Positions 18,507 through 23,212 of a DNA stretch of 64,000 nt are shown one piece after another (positions within the stretch are counted from its first letter, which is position 1; each line of letters opens with the position of its first letter). The DNA comes from Hymenobacter negativus. GTDB taxonomy: Bacteria > Bacteroidota > Bacteroidia > Cytophagales > Hymenobacteraceae. Both the position numbers and the translations under genes were made by a program. Location of the stretch: NCBI RefSeq assembly GCF_016056375.1, contig NZ_JAEDAE010000002.1:620001-684000 (forward strand), given 5' to 3'. A model generated the notes under the pieces. It made no database searches and had not been told where the DNA came from. It saw nothing but the letters and a program-made list of their open reading frames with translations.

Positions 18507-19610
18507 TTAATTATAACGGCTAATAAACCCAGCCTTTTGAGCATAATAGACATATGAAAATGCACTTTCCCGCAACCTTACTCTCCTCTTGTTGCTAGCA
18601 TCAATATAATTACCAGCTAATTCTATAGCTCCTATTGCGGCAACACCAAGTGCTTCTGTTGCAACCGGAATATCGAATAAACTCGTTTGAGAATTAACTA
18701 GAGCGCCAATTGCTGCAAAAGATGTTGGTGACTTTAAATTGATAAGAGATTTGAAAGACTTAAAAACGTGTTCAATTCTCGAATCACTCAAGGCTTTATC
18801 CAAGTCTTTGACACCATTCATTAATGTTTCGTGAAAATCTATAGCAATTTCTTTCATTTCAGAATTGGATGTCACCTTAGCTGCCTTTGACTCGAAGGCT
18901 GATATATTCTTGTTGAAATGGCTCAAATTATCCTTTCTAAGCCTTTTGAATTTGATTATCTCTTCGAATGGAACGTTACTATTTGGCGTGGGCATAATAT
19001 TATGAAGGCTTAGGCTCATGATTTGAATTCCAGTCCTTCTATTATCAGCCTTAAAGTTTAATTTTTCATAGCCTGCATTGTCTGTACCTATTACTGTATA
19101 GTTGTCAGCGGCATCAGCAAGATATTTGGCGAGCAGAGACATATAAAGCATTGCTACACTGTTCTCGAAATCAATCCACTCGCTATCCTGATTTCGTTTA
19201 GCCAAACCTAGCTCTTCGAGAAATTCATAAATTCCATTATTCGTTTTATTGGAATGAATTCTTGAACTATTCCCAACTTTATTACTGTGAATTTTAATAC
19301 TATGTGACCCAGCACGACGTTTTAAAAAACCTTGAAATTCGTCGCTTCGAACTGTTTCTTTAAACTCTACTTGGAACGCTTCAAAAGCTTCCCAATTATC
19401 TGGTTTATCAGTTAGCTCTTCTGGTTTAACAGGTCTGAACTGCTCTTCGTCCATTAAGTAGTGGATTTCGGGAGACAACTCCAATAAAAGTTCATTATCC
19501 CAACTTTTGGGCACTATTGAACTAACCTCATCCCAATATAACAAAGCGTGCCTCAGCCAATCTGCTCGTGGAATATCAATCGTAGGGTAGTATAGTATTG
19601 TTCTTTTCAT
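18507..19610 (-). CDS. DUF6236-like protein
   Basis: 367 aa on the minus strand, clearly more AT-rich than the flanking core genome. The N-terminus (YYPTIDIPRADWLRHALLYWD followed by SIVP) is the hallmark I associate with DUF6236, a family without known function often seen in accessory DNA. The central part is helical (residues ~210-300), and a glycine/alanine-rich hydrophobic stretch lies at ~300-340. No nuclease motif is visible. It lies 139 nt downstream of the ABC-three-component-like operon in the same direction and may be an added effector or an independent gene. Confidence 0.65.
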   Translation of the reverse strand: MKRTILYYPTIDIPRADWLRHALLYWDEVSSIVPKSWDNELLLELSPEIHYLMDEEQFRPVKPEELTDKPDNWEAFEAFQVEFKETVRSDEFQGFLKRRAGSHSIKIHSNKVGNSSRIHSNKTNNGIYEFLEELGLAKRNQDSEWIDFENSVAMLYMSLLAKYLADAADNYTVIGTDNAGYEKLNFKADNRRTGIQIMSLSLHNIMPTPNSNVPFEEIIKFKRLRKDNLSHFNKNISAFESKAAKVTSNSEMKEIAIDFHETLMNGVKDLDKALSDSRIEHVFKSFKSLINLKSPTSFAAIGALVNSQTSLFDIPVATEALGVAAIGAIELAGNYIDASNKRRVRLRESAFSYVYYAQKAGFISRYN

Positions 19611-19749: not shown

Positions 19750-21651
19750 CTAAGCTGATTTCAGCTTCAGCGTTTTATTTTCTGGACCATAGAATTCGCC
19801 GATGCAATACTTGTCAACGTTCAGCGACTCATCTATCATAGAGGTCGAAAAAATAATCTGGTGCTCAACGTCGAACTGCTCCGAGAGGGAAACAACACTC
19901 CGCTGAAATCTTTTGCTGCGCTCAGGCTGCATGCCCTTATCTTCCATGTTATCGCACATAACTAGGCGAGGGTAACGGAAGAAGGGATTTTCTAGCGAGG
20001 CAAAGAAAATCCCAAAAAGCGCGCAATTCTTAGCGTAGACTACGGAGCTAGCAGAGAAGTTATTTCGACCGTCGACGGCAAATGTGTTTTTAGAAAAGTC
20101 GACCTCTACACGGCTGGCATTGGCAAAACCGGCTTCATAATGGCCATCCTGTTTAAGCAGGCTGACGGCGAATCTGCTAATTGAATTAAGCGCAATCGAT
20201 GAGTTACGGCGTTGCTTTTCGTGTTTCAATTGGATGATATCATCTAATTCCGCAATCTGTCGCTTGGCATCTTCAATTTTGCGCCGGGCAGCATCCAGCA
20301 GCTTCATTACATTGATTTGCTGTTCCAGAAACTGACGCTGTGCCTGCAGATTCCCTTTTCTAATGAGAAGCTTATCAATCTGTTCATCTCGGGAAGACTG
20401 GCTTTTGTTGATAAACGCATCGTAGTTGCGTTGTAAAAGCCTGGCGTTTGAGCGAAGGTTCGGGATAGCATTTTCGAGCAGCTCTTTTCTGGAAATCTTG
20501 TCGACCAGTAATCCAGTTGATTCTTTTAATTGGAGTTCGAGTTCTTGGCGCATACGCATGGCCTGCGTCTGCTTGGCCTCGGGGGGAAGGGGCTGGTCAC
20601 ACAGGATGCAATTATTTTCTGGCTGCTGGTCCCGAACTAATGCTTCTAAGCAGTGTGGGCATTGGGTGATGGGCAATTGCCCTAGAATTCGGCGGGTTTC
20701 AATTGACTCATTGAGGGCCGAAACCCGATGCTTTAAGCTGGCAATAAAGTCTTCGGAATCCTGTACATCCAAAACGATTTTTTCGAGCTCCTGCAAGGAA
20801 CTACCGAGGGCGTTTTTGGCATCCGACAGGGTTTTATTGAGCTCGGCAACATTTGTGTCAATCTTCTTGACTTTTAAGGTTGTGCTATCGGCTGCAACCT
20901 GCGCGTTGATGGAATCAACTTCCTGCAGAAGCTCCTGAAGCTGAATTTCCAGCTCGCTAATTGTTGTAGACTGGCCAGCCACCTTCATTACGGAAAGCAA
21001 CCCACGGTGCTCACTCGTGTAATCGGCCAACTCTTTTTGCAGACGGCTGCGGTTTATCTGGGCGCTGTACAGCTCATTATCATAGATGCCCAACAGCAAA
21101 TCACCAGTAGCCTTGCGGGTAAGCGGCGGGTCAAACTTCTCGTCTATCATCAACGACGTGAAGTTGGTGGCTTGGTCGATAAAGAGCAGGCGCAACACCT
21201 GGTGCATGGTGATATTGCTTTCGTCTTCGGTCTTGACCTCGGGAAAGCCAATCGCCCGGAACATTAACTGCGAAAAGCTTTCCTTGGTGGCCGTACGGCG
21301 GCCTCCGTATTCTTCCCAGCCGATTGCCGAAGCTAATGCTTCAGGGAGAGGCCCCCAGAAAATATCAATTGGTGGCGGGTATACAGCTATTTTGCGGCGC
21401 AGTGTGAAGACAGCGCCAAATGTTTCAACTTCGGCATACACGTCATCGCAGGACTTTGCGTCTTCGGTCCACTGGGTGTACTCGCCGCCCAGGACGTAGA
21501 ACAGCATGTTCATCACCGTGGATTTGCCGGAGCCATTTTCGCCGCGGATGATGTTCACGCCACGATGAAACGAAGCTTGAAATACTTGCTTCCCAGCCTT
21601 ATAAACTTGAAGCTCTCGAACGAAGAGGCTTGGGGCGAGCTTTTGCATCAT
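19750..21651 (-). CDS. Rad50/SMC-like ABC ATPase of an ABC-three-component-like system
   Basis: 633 aa. Walker A GENGSGKST at residues 37-45; a long coiled-coil midsection (~195-330 and ~360-480) broken by a zinc-hook-like pair CPHC (331-334) and CILC (348-351); a C-terminal ATPase half with VMCDNMEDKG as the Walker B region, where the usual DE is replaced by DNMED. This is the architecture of small Rad50-type ATPases in conflict systems, not of housekeeping SbcC/RecN. It is the last gene of a tight four-gene minus-strand operon (spacings 2, 1 and 4 nt). It probably senses or handles foreign nucleic acid and licenses the partner proteins. Confidence 0.82.
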   Translation of the reverse strand: MMQKLAPSLFVRELQVYKAGKQVFQASFHRGVNIIRGENGSGKSTVMNMLFYVLGGEYTQWTEDAKSCDDVYAEVETFGAVFTLRRKIAVYPPPIDIFWGPLPEALASAIGWEEYGGRRTATKESFSQLMFRAIGFPEVKTEDESNITMHQVLRLLFIDQATNFTSLMIDEKFDPPLTRKATGDLLLGIYDNELYSAQINRSRLQKELADYTSEHRGLLSVMKVAGQSTTISELEIQLQELLQEVDSINAQVAADSTTLKVKKIDTNVAELNKTLSDAKNALGSSLQELEKIVLDVQDSEDFIASLKHRVSALNESIETRRILGQLPITQCPHCLEALVRDQQPENNCILCDQPLPPEAKQTQAMRMRQELELQLKESTGLLVDKISRKELLENAIPNLRSNARLLQRNYDAFINKSQSSRDEQIDKLLIRKGNLQAQRQFLEQQINVMKLLDAARRKIEDAKRQIAELDDIIQLKHEKQRRNSSIALNSISRFAVSLLKQDGHYEAGFANASRVEVDFSKNTFAVDGRNNFSASSVVYAKNCALFGIFFASLENPFFRYPRLVMCDNMEDKGMQPERSKRFQRSVVSLSEQFDVEHQIIFSTSMIDESLNVDKYCIGEFYGPENKTLKLKSA

Positions 21652-21655
21652 GCAC

Positions 21656-22132
21656 CTAGAATAATTTAGAACGTTCTTTTAGCCCAATCGAGCCTTCGTA
21701 AGGCATTTTGAGCAGCACTTGGTTGACAAACTCGGCCAGCACAGCGTTTTCTATCGGCTGAGAAACAAGCATATCGATTTCCTCACCAAAAAATTTATCG
21801 GAGAGCTTAACCTCACCCTTGCGATACAGAAGAGGGTCGATAAAAGCGTAGGCAGACATTGCCTGGAGGGCAGAGTCCTGGTAGCCTTGCAGCTGGCGGA
21901 ACACAATTGGCCCGTTGTAGACGTCCTCGTAGGGGTTAACCTTGAAAAGCTTGCGGTAGCTTCTGTACTCTAAGGGCAACTGCATCTTGGTTATCTCACC
22001 TGGAAAGACCACGAAATAATCAATCAGCTTGATGTGTTCGGTGGCGTAACTTTTATCCTTGGTGAGATAGAGCAGTTTGAGGAATCGGCAGACGGCATGG
22101 TATAGGTCGAAGGCAGGGTGGTAGACTAGCAT
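21656..22132 (-). CDS. ABC-three-component middle-component-like protein
   Basis: 158 aa, all-alpha/beta small protein (YHPAFDLYHAVCRFLKLL at the N-terminus; a DYFVVFP segment near 40-47). Size, helical N-terminus and position between the Rad50-like ATPase and a larger partner match the middle component (MC) of ABC-3C systems, a set described by comparative genomics. The exact MC subtype is not assigned. The start ATG 22132 lies 1 nt after the upstream gene's stop, so translational coupling is likely. Confidence 0.65.
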   Translation of the reverse strand: MLVYHPAFDLYHAVCRFLKLLYLTKDKSYATEHIKLIDYFVVFPGEITKMQLPLEYRSYRKLFKVNPYEDVYNGPIVFRQLQGYQDSALQAMSAYAFIDPLLYRKGEVKLSDKFFGEEIDMLVSQPIENAVLAEFVNQVLLKMPYEGSIGLKERSKLF

Positions 22133-22133
22133 G

Positions 22134-22733
22134 TTAGTGCCATTTTATGTGGCAATTCCCTGTCAGAAAGTAAAGCATGCCGCATATTTCGTCCTTATAC
22201 AAGTCGAGTACGTTGCTGCCAAGCTTCTCTTCCAAGTAGATGTACACATGCTCTTCGACGAGGTACATGACCTGCTGCGCTGGTAGTCCAGCTACGATGG
22301 AGGGGTAAACGTGTTGCTCAAAACAAGCATACGTTTCGACCAGCAAAATAGCATACATTTTCTGCGCAGCCTCGGAAAACTGGTGTTTTGTGAGGTGTTT
22401 TACGAACATTTCCTTGGTCTTGACGGCGAAGCCATAAAGGGAGCTGTAGCCTCCCAGAACCAGTTTTTGCTCCAAACCAATGACTTCTACCTCGTCCTCC
22501 GCCAAAGTGGAGTAGTGTTCGAGCTTGTCAATCAGGGGCCGGTGGCCACCCAAATTTTGCGCGCGCTCCTCCAGGTACTGCATGCCCAGCTCGACCAGCT
22601 TGTTGCTCCAAGCGGCGCTACGACTAGAATAGTTGTTGATAGTCGTTTCGTGGCGAATGTCACGGCCGGCGTTGTCGCGGCCAGCACGTATGTCATCCTG
22701 GGACGTGCGAGTGCCCGGCGGTACTCCGAACAT
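22134..22733 (-). CDS. ABC-three-component C-terminal-component-like protein with IRAG motif
   Basis: 199 aa. Residues 14-26 carry DIRAGRDNAGRDI, a short Gly/Asp repeat of predicted beta-strand/turn type. After a linker, residues ~38-199 are a helical domain (LVELGMQYLEERAQ; LLVETYACFEQHVYP; VLDLYKDEICGMLYFL), resembling the C-terminal domain subunits of ABC-3C systems. Almost the same motif is found in the 62-aa membrane protein encoded just upstream, which suggests the two interact. It is flanked by overlapping-range spacings within one operon. No catalytic residues were recognised. Confidence 0.65.
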   Translation of the reverse strand: MFGVPPGTRTSQDDIRAGRDNAGRDIRHETTINNYSSRSAAWSNKLVELGMQYLEERAQNLGGHRPLIDKLEHYSTLAEDEVEVIGLEQKLVLGGYSSLYGFAVKTKEMFVKHLTKHQFSEAAQKMYAILLVETYACFEQHVYPSIVAGLPAQQVMYLVEEHVYIYLEEKLGSNVLDLYKDEICGMLYFLTGNCHIKWH

Positions 22734-22735
22734 CT

Positions 22736-22924
22736 CTACTTCGTGTTCTTGTTGATGTCGCCACCCGCCACGTCGCCGCCGGCGCGGATGTTTTTCTGCG
22801 TCACATCATTGATGCGGCCAGAGTTGTGTGTATTACGATTCTGAATGACTTTGAAAGTAATAACGGCACCTGCTGCAAGAAGCGCGACTACAGCCAGCAG
22901 AATTTTGGTAAGATTGTCGTCCAT
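22736..22924 (-). CDS. Small membrane protein with IRAG motif (ABC-3C operon)
   Basis: 62 aa, first gene of the operon. An N-terminal membrane helix (residues ~7-26) is followed by a polar stretch and NIRAGGDVAGGDI at 45-57, matching DIRAGRDNAGRDI of the next protein in 9 of 13 positions. Only 2 nt separate the two genes. The layout predicts a membrane anchor exposing a beta-type motif that recruits the soluble component. It is too short for ordinary annotation cut-offs but its position and shared motif support it as real. Confidence 0.7.
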   Translation of the reverse strand: MDDNLTKILLAVVALLAAGAVITFKVIQNRNTHNSGRINDVTQKNIRAGGDVAGGDINKNTK

Positions 22925-23212
22925 AACAAGGGCGCGGAGGAAAGGAAATCGGAGGGGAATGCTAAGCGTTTGCTACCCAATCCATTTGCCAGAGTAGAAC
23001 AAATGGGGGCCTAAAGCCAAGCGGATAAGCGGTGGTTGTTACCACGGAGTAGCTTATACTTGCTGTATAATCGACAGTGGTTGCCACAAAGTAACTATAC
23101 TTTTTCCAGAATGAGTACACCGTTGCTGATATGAGTCACTTTTGGTGCCTCATGTTAACAGCGTTACACAGCCGAGGGTATTGAGGCGTGGCCACTGCCG
23201 CAGTGCTAGCGA
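22925..23212. promoter_or_regulatory. Divergent intergenic region: ABC-3C operon / hsdM
   Basis: About 290 nt between divergent defence operons. It holds GTGG...CCAC pairs around 23031-23045 and again near 23081, and is AT-rich from 23050 to 23130. No complete TAnnTTTG promoter was found, so operator and promoter positions are unassigned. Confidence 0.3.

Follow-up and report, generated by a model that had tools for sequence, protein, structure and literature searches.

How might an ABC-three-component (ABC-3C) operon act on its host cell when the subunit in the effector position carries no recognisable catalytic or toxic domain? The question is raised by four genes on the minus strand of a 64,000-nucleotide (nt) stretch of Hymenobacter negativus DNA (contig NZ_JAEDAE010000002.1, positions 620,001 to 684,000; hereafter the window), which encode, in transcription order, a 62-amino-acid (aa) transmembrane (TM) protein, a 199-aa CTD9 protein, a 158-aa middle component 5 (MC5) protein and a 633-aa ATPase, with successive gaps of 2, 1 and 4 nt. 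A preliminary description of this DNA had proposed a tightly packed ABC-three-component-like operon; its coordinates, strand, sizes and gaps prove exact, and Pfam supplies the names CTD9 and MC5. We read the locus, with a probability of roughly two in three, as an ABC-3C defence operon in which CTD9 activates a separate, mostly membrane-bound effector via homotypic contact between short motifs. On sequence evidence, the arrangement suggests a plug-and-socket form of signalling that has to date been described for NOD-like receptor (NLR)-type immune receptors alone.

The starting point is a stretch, IRAG[GR]D[VN]AG[GR]DI, shared by the C-terminal end of the TM protein and the N-terminal tail of CTD9. 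The two window copies are identical at 9 of 12 residues (Smith-Waterman score 48, p = 0.00035 over 20,000 residue shuffles). Related loci were collected by scanning 85,000 species genomes with [GC]M[LIV][YH][FY]LTG[NK], a CTD9 C-terminal pattern that excludes the motif, which yielded 71 CTD9 loci from Bacteroidota, Verrucomicrobiota, Acidobacteriota, Fibrobacterota, Proteobacteria, Desulfobacterota, Riflebacteria and other phyla. A scan of genome contigs queried with the window protein alone found no loci; an alignment query (A1) did recover them. Nearly all surveyed loci have a small upstream gene, followed by a middle component (MC) and an ATPase with Walker A and CxxC motifs. When the last 45 aa of the partner, an upstream open reading frame (ORF) chosen by a motif-blind rule, were compared with the first 50 aa of CTD9, 61 of the 65 trans loci (those with a separate upstream partner) gave a match at p <= 0.01. 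Control ends behaved differently: partner versus MC gave 2/61, partner versus ATPase 3/60, and both partner versus the CTD middle and CTD end versus MC start 0/61. Among the four trans loci that did not pair, L026 reflects a wrong choice by the longest-ORF rule, its correct 58-aa ORF visibly carrying the motif, and L052, L068 and L072 are weak. ORFs were corrected by hand at L026, L032, L061, L069 and L071, where the CTD gene is frameshifted. Chance as the source of the shared motif is ruled out by the shuffles, the 61/65 pairing and the control gene ends.

Four CTD9 loci on viral contigs (L081-L084) all show the motif pair by eye. At L069 (2691-3851) the 175-aa partner bears its motif, chosen by eye, at the N-terminus rather than the C-terminus (ITGNPGTGNTFQ versus INGNPGNNNTFQ). 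On an Agrobacterium plasmid (L085; NZ_CP047389.1 275780-284304) the CTD9 gene has neither MC nor ATPase beside it, and genes for a Mu-type transposase, TniB and TniQ come next. The TM reading frame upstream appears to be broken, and the locus resembles a decayed or truncated operon. As for other CTD families, CTD8 was not found, and CTD6 gave a single match with a fused effector and no motif partner.

The motif differs between loci, and it does so in both partners together. The window class, GGDxAGRDI, is joined by AGGDVxGRDK, HNGDNxF, GSxxHGxxxAGN, AGxNSxQYxSxG, NNGxIxKQVN, GGDFIIGEK and DGDIVxGDK; there are at least eight unrelated classes, and both partners of each locus carry the same one. 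Because shuffle p-values ignore phylogeny, weight falls on two further tests, which rest on simple alignments and a few hand-corrected ORFs. Cognate pairs from 35 non-redundant loci score 58.2 on average and non-cognate pairs 28.0, the highest value among 5000 permutations being 35.5, and the partners' motif similarities remain correlated when CTD9 similarity is controlled (partial Mantel r = 0.50; maximum of 2000 permutations, 0.30). Motif class partly tracks the CTD9 tree (8 changes); shared ancestry alone is disfavoured as the cause by the partial Mantel test on the non-redundant loci. Even departures in architecture are matched, L022 having three five-residue units instead of two in both partners. 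Within the window's own genus the change is likewise concerted, from GGDVAGGDI/GRDNAGRDI in the window to GDVVGGN/GDVVAGN in L079.

This match is kept at the level of protein. Among 685 residues identical between paired motifs, the same codon is used at 294, against 302.6 expected if the two codons are drawn independently from each locus's own usage. The copies have thus fully diverged at synonymous positions, so that their likeness is maintained by selection on the proteins; recent duplication, gene conversion and a DNA- or RNA-level signal are excluded.

The small membrane protein is itself a real gene. Its genus relative L079 has all four genes, including a 62-aa protein 66% identical over 58 aligned residues, and the ratio of nonsynonymous to synonymous substitution rates (dN/dS) between the two is about 0.13, from which we conclude that the ORF is coding and constrained, like its neighbours. 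RefSeq-derived records list its counterparts as proteins. Sequence rich in lysine and arginine (K/R) lies on the motif side of the helix in 39 of 41 single-TM homologues, with two ties and no reverse case; given this bias and the positive-inside rule, the motif is predicted to lie in the cytosol, the compartment of CTD9.

The partner, the proposed effector, varies between loci. Most partners are proteins with one or two TM helices, the single-TM form being commonest. Others belong to a small helical family (L064, L065, L067, L068, L070) or contain a HetE-N domain (L057; 1.6e-27), and in L042 the partner is a calcineurin-like phosphoesterase (Metallophos 5.6e-14) that bears its motif C-terminally. 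Effector class changes at least 11 times on the CTD9 tree and motif class at least 8 times; within one supported CTD9 clade and one motif class, L067 has a helical partner and L074 a 2TM partner. Two motif copies are found in the partners at L025, L051 and L055. In L020 the TM protein is fused directly into CTD9 through a single motif copy, its sister L029 being unfused. Other CTD9 proteins carry fused domains, either HNH-like (L030 and L038, the former with a patatin-like phospholipase gene directly upstream) or protease-like with an upstream metallo-beta-lactamase (L049, L063, L066), and there no shared motif was found (p > 0.4 for the N-terminus; the whole fused part was searched). From the swapping of partners, the L020 fusion and the lack of the motif in fused-domain CTD9 proteins, we conclude that the motif stands in for covalent effector fusion.

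These results bear directly on the preliminary description, which had seen a nearly identical motif in the 62-aa and 199-aa proteins and took it to couple a membrane peptide to a soluble CTD protein, provided that the small ORF is conserved, translated and found with the CTD gene, and that homologous operons share the motif. The likeness stands at 9 of 12 residues, the gene is conserved with annotated counterparts and sits directly upstream in nearly all CTD9 loci, and the motif is present and covaries across them. As judged from sequence, the coupling itself now has strong support: the motifs covary, their codons are independent, partners are swapped and L020 is a fusion. A further proposal of the description, templated beta-type recruitment as in amyloid-like signalling, would be one possible form of this coupling; the motif matched no known amyloid-motif family in Pfam. 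The label of membrane adaptor is too narrow: the single-TM partner is the commonest, and helical, HetE-N and phosphoesterase classes occur beside it.

What, then, is the complex at the other end of the motif? The three-gene core is an already known ABC-3C type, defined by Pfam CTD9 plus MC5 and belonging to the Lamassu superfamily, within which ABC-3C systems have been placed (PMC10586767). RefSeq-derived annotation of homologues likewise reads "ABC-three component system protein" and "middle component 5", the small gene being a "hypothetical protein". Pfam recognises CTD9 in the 199-aa protein at E 1.6e-30 (106 bits against a cut-off of 27.9) and MC5 in the 158-aa protein at E 8e-31 (107.5 bits against 25). 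The AlphaFold2 model of the CTD9 protein (predicted local distance difference test, pLDDT, 86) is helical over residues 36-192, and its N-terminal tail, residues 1-35, is predicted to be disordered (pLDDT 53-60 over residues 1-40); neither Pfam nor the model reveals a catalytic or toxic domain in addition to tail and helices. The MC5 model reaches pLDDT 90. The ATPase matches Pfam AAA_23 (2.8e-9) and PADLOC LmuB (9.6e-44 over residues 6-501), and has a Walker A GENGSGKS, two CxxC pairs in its coiled coil and a Walker B, VMCDNMED (window about 19930-19990), that ends in DN rather than DE. This Asn recurs in 34 of the 34 CTD9-locus ATPases in which the pattern placed the site, of 51 examined. 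Searches of PDB sequences with the CTD9 alignment, the MC5 alignment and the ATPase returned nothing meaningful. The system is sporadic, occurring in 6 of 395 genomes in a sample of the phylum and 2 of 81 in the genus.

Put together, these parts suggest a sequence of events. The LmuB-like ATPase and MC5 would hold CTD9 until foreign DNA or phage replication is sensed, whereupon CTD9 would be released and oligomerise, as inferred from Lamassu, in which activation frees LmuA to assemble as a homotetramer (PMC12409362). Oligomerisation would cluster the unstructured N-terminal motifs of CTD9, and these would make homotypic contact with the copy in the cytosolic tail of the membrane protein, stacked beta-strands being the likeliest form. 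The pairing would gather the membrane helices and so turn a harmless helix into an assembly that breaches or depolarises the membrane. In essence, the motif would serve as a specificity code that ties each sensor to its own effector and permits effectors to be exchanged.

Several points weigh against activation through the motif. The membrane protein may act as an anchor and not be toxic itself; motif similarity is weak at the three trans loci named above; the CTD9 model has no significant fold match in the PDB; and the top fold match of the MC5 model, LmuC of LmuABC (9ny5_C), is weak (E 0.53, probability 0.63, TM-score 0.47), with MukE among the next-ranked matches. The AlphaFold2 models are monomers and hence uninformative on assembly. 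The principal rival builds on the anchor idea: a constitutive, non-amyloid homotypic joint, such as a short beta-solenoid or strand pair, would anchor the whole ABC-3C complex at the membrane, with the TM protein as scaffold and toxicity elsewhere. The smallest partners, at 52-62 aa, are indeed barely more than a single helix and tail, and a motif of two or three five-residue units (GDVAG-GDINK; three in L022) fits a small solenoid or a fibril alike. Yet the partner is often not a membrane protein at all, as with the HetE-N, phosphoesterase and helical classes, and CTD9 here lacks any other effector while the motif is absent where a catalytic domain is fused, which argues that the partner takes the effector's place. 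We consider such a joint unlikely, if the strongest of the rivals. A homotypic joint could also serve inhibition as well as activation, and the small gene comes first in the operon, a common gene order for antitoxins; the membrane protein might then be an antitoxin or inhibitor that holds CTD9 off at the membrane until a trigger lets it act. This is improbable, given that CTD9 of this type has no recognisable toxic domain and that its partners include effector-type domains such as the phosphoesterase and HetE-N.

Two further accounts would deny the motif any role in signalling between proteins. It might be a functionless relic of gene fission, or of tandem duplication, of a TM-CTD9 fusion like that of L020, a form that does exist; fusion or fission would leave one gene ending, and its neighbour beginning, with an identical stretch. 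The codon comparison marks the copies as old, yet the proteins have stayed similar and covary in at least eight classes, and unrelated partner domains bear the matching motif, so that we find a relic very hard to credit. The likeness could instead be a DNA- or RNA-level feature of the gene junction, such as translational coupling or an overlapping regulatory element, as the tightly packed or overlapping genes and the position of the motif at either side of the junction would allow. Codons of shared residues are not conserved between copies beyond codon usage, however, and the L069 partner has its motif at the far end; of all the alternatives we give this one the least credence.

The preferred reading, activation of a separate effector by CTD9, has relatives on two sides. 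Lamassu type II (DdmABC; LmuA-LmuC-LmuB) has, like the window operon, the order effector-side subunit, MC, ATPase, and the window ATPase is LmuB-like. In described Lamassu systems, however, an enzymatic domain at the N-terminus of LmuA acts as the effector. The window CTD9 protein lacks such a domain and has just a tail with the motif; the proposed effector is separate, mostly membrane-bound and furnished with the same motif. The Walker B also differs, with Asn in window-type ATPases and generally Gln in LmuB, for which a Glu-to-Gln change has been reported. Metallo-beta-lactamase nuclease/protease pairs, described along with further effector modules fused to LmuA (PMC12799240), match the arrangement of L049, L063 and L066; there the parts are coupled covalently and through proteolysis, and L049-type loci yielded no shared motif. 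The closer analogy for the motif lies with NLR-Bell amyloid signalosomes (BASS1-10), which, as Dyrka et al. (2020) is represented in PMC7889193 and PMC12261475, also place the motif at the effector C-terminus and the sensor N-terminus. On the same sources they share adjacent or overlapping genes, a membrane-targeting effector, many unrelated motif classes and repeats on the effector side (here L025, L051 and L055), the last also reported for HET-s and BASS4 (PMC8086366). What sets the present system apart is its sensor, a Rad50/SMC-type three-subunit complex of CTD9, MC5 and LmuB-like ATPase rather than an NLR (STAND NTPase). Literature searches joining Lamassu and amyloid returned no papers, and the combination of ABC-3C with a paired motif was not found in the literature searched, an earlier mention in the original ABC-3C, Dyrka et al. 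2020 or Lamassu structure papers being possible.

The pairing device extends beyond CTD9. HetE-N effectors with the motif class of L057 (HSGTGDNVGGNKI) occur on enterobacterial and vibrio plasmids (L090-L093), where their genes sit 3-5 nt before large proteins of 922-1116 aa that start with a matching motif and take the place of the sensor-side CTD9 protein. These partners show no Walker A pattern, and those searched against Pfam, PADLOC or the PDB matched nothing. Since plasmid HetE-N genes pair with large non-CTD9 proteins, the device serves at least two unrelated sensors, and HetE-N plus large protein is apparently an undescribed two-gene system that uses it. The pairs lie at L090:4001-7095, L092:4001-7633 and L093:4001-7685, and also in L091, with motifs such as HSGTGDNVGGNKI / QNHTGTGHNVAGD. 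About 250 genomes of the window's phylum yielded no HetE-N, and tblastn with the short motif against plasmids gave no matches. A bolder proposal, which we hold tentatively and rate somewhat short of an even bet, is that this would be prion-like cross-beta templating outside NLRs: a Rad50/SMC-type DNA-sensing complex would activate a separate membrane-killing peptide, the motif would act as a diversifying orthogonal code with eight or more classes, and the unrelated large plasmid sensor would have HetE-N effectors of the same kind and motif class plugged into it as well.

The four-gene system is also found, nearly identical, in 9 of 5426 Escherichia coli genomes, in one of which IS1 has inserted. 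The copy that was inspected (L089; NZ_AP024561.1 2929167-2939281, the 3.1-kb operon itself at 2933530-2936652) has motifs LKNVSINGDYTGRDK and LKNVFVNGDYVGRDK and lies in a P4-like satellite, between tRNA-Leu/integrase and psu/sid-type genes. The slot between the integrase and the psu/sid genes of such satellites is a usual place for anti-phage cargo.

Features of the window operon are listed below. Divergent type I restriction-modification (RM) genes adjoin it, GmrSD and helicase genes lie further on, and an integrase lies on the other side; the region 11819-38394 resembles a defence island, with an integrase, HNH, type I RM, a GmrSD type IV restriction enzyme, an HNH-like gene and a large DEAD-box helicase. 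Palindromes GTGGTTGTTACCAC and GTGGTTGCCAC (23032-23045 and 23077-23087) in the divergent intergenic region between operon and type I RM are possible operators. A same-strand DUF6236 gene (18507-19610), separated from the ATPase by 139 nt on its downstream side, is probably outside the operon.

Table 1. Coordinates of the four-gene operon and its parts in the window.
Feature	Position	Strand	Basis or remark
62-aa single-pass membrane protein, proposed separate effector	22736-22924	-	ORF, K/R bias, dN/dS
Predicted TM helix of the 62-aa protein, about residues 8-28, then predicted cytosolic C-terminal tail	22841-22903	-	
Effector copy of pairing motif, IRAGGDVAGGDI, residues 46-57 of 62	22754-22789	-	Motif comparison
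199-aa CTD9 protein, LmuA-position subunit, without fused catalytic domain	22134-22733	-	Pfam, AlphaFold2
Sensor copy of pairing motif, IRAGRDNAGRDI, residues 15-26 of 199	22656-22691	-	Inside N-terminal tail
CTD9 domain, residues 86-198	22140-22478	-	Pfam; genome search recovers same stretch
158-aa ABC-3C middle component 5, LmuC-like	21656-22132	-	Pfam MC5, AlphaFold2
633-aa Rad50/SMC-like ATPase, LmuB-like	19750-21651	-	Pfam, PADLOC, Walker/CxxC motifs

If the proposed link is correct, SMC-type defence complexes would signal to a separate, exchangeable effector by a short matched motif, not by a fused enzyme. NLR-independent signalling amyloids have been listed as an open question (PMC7889193), and the present loci would bring that question within reach of a simple test. 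The evolution of homotypic specificity could also be studied in them, since they provide dozens of orthogonal motif pairs made by nature, and the E. coli example can be assayed in standard laboratory strains. For annotation, the finding would give a role to the tiny "hypothetical protein" genes that precede ABC-3C genes.

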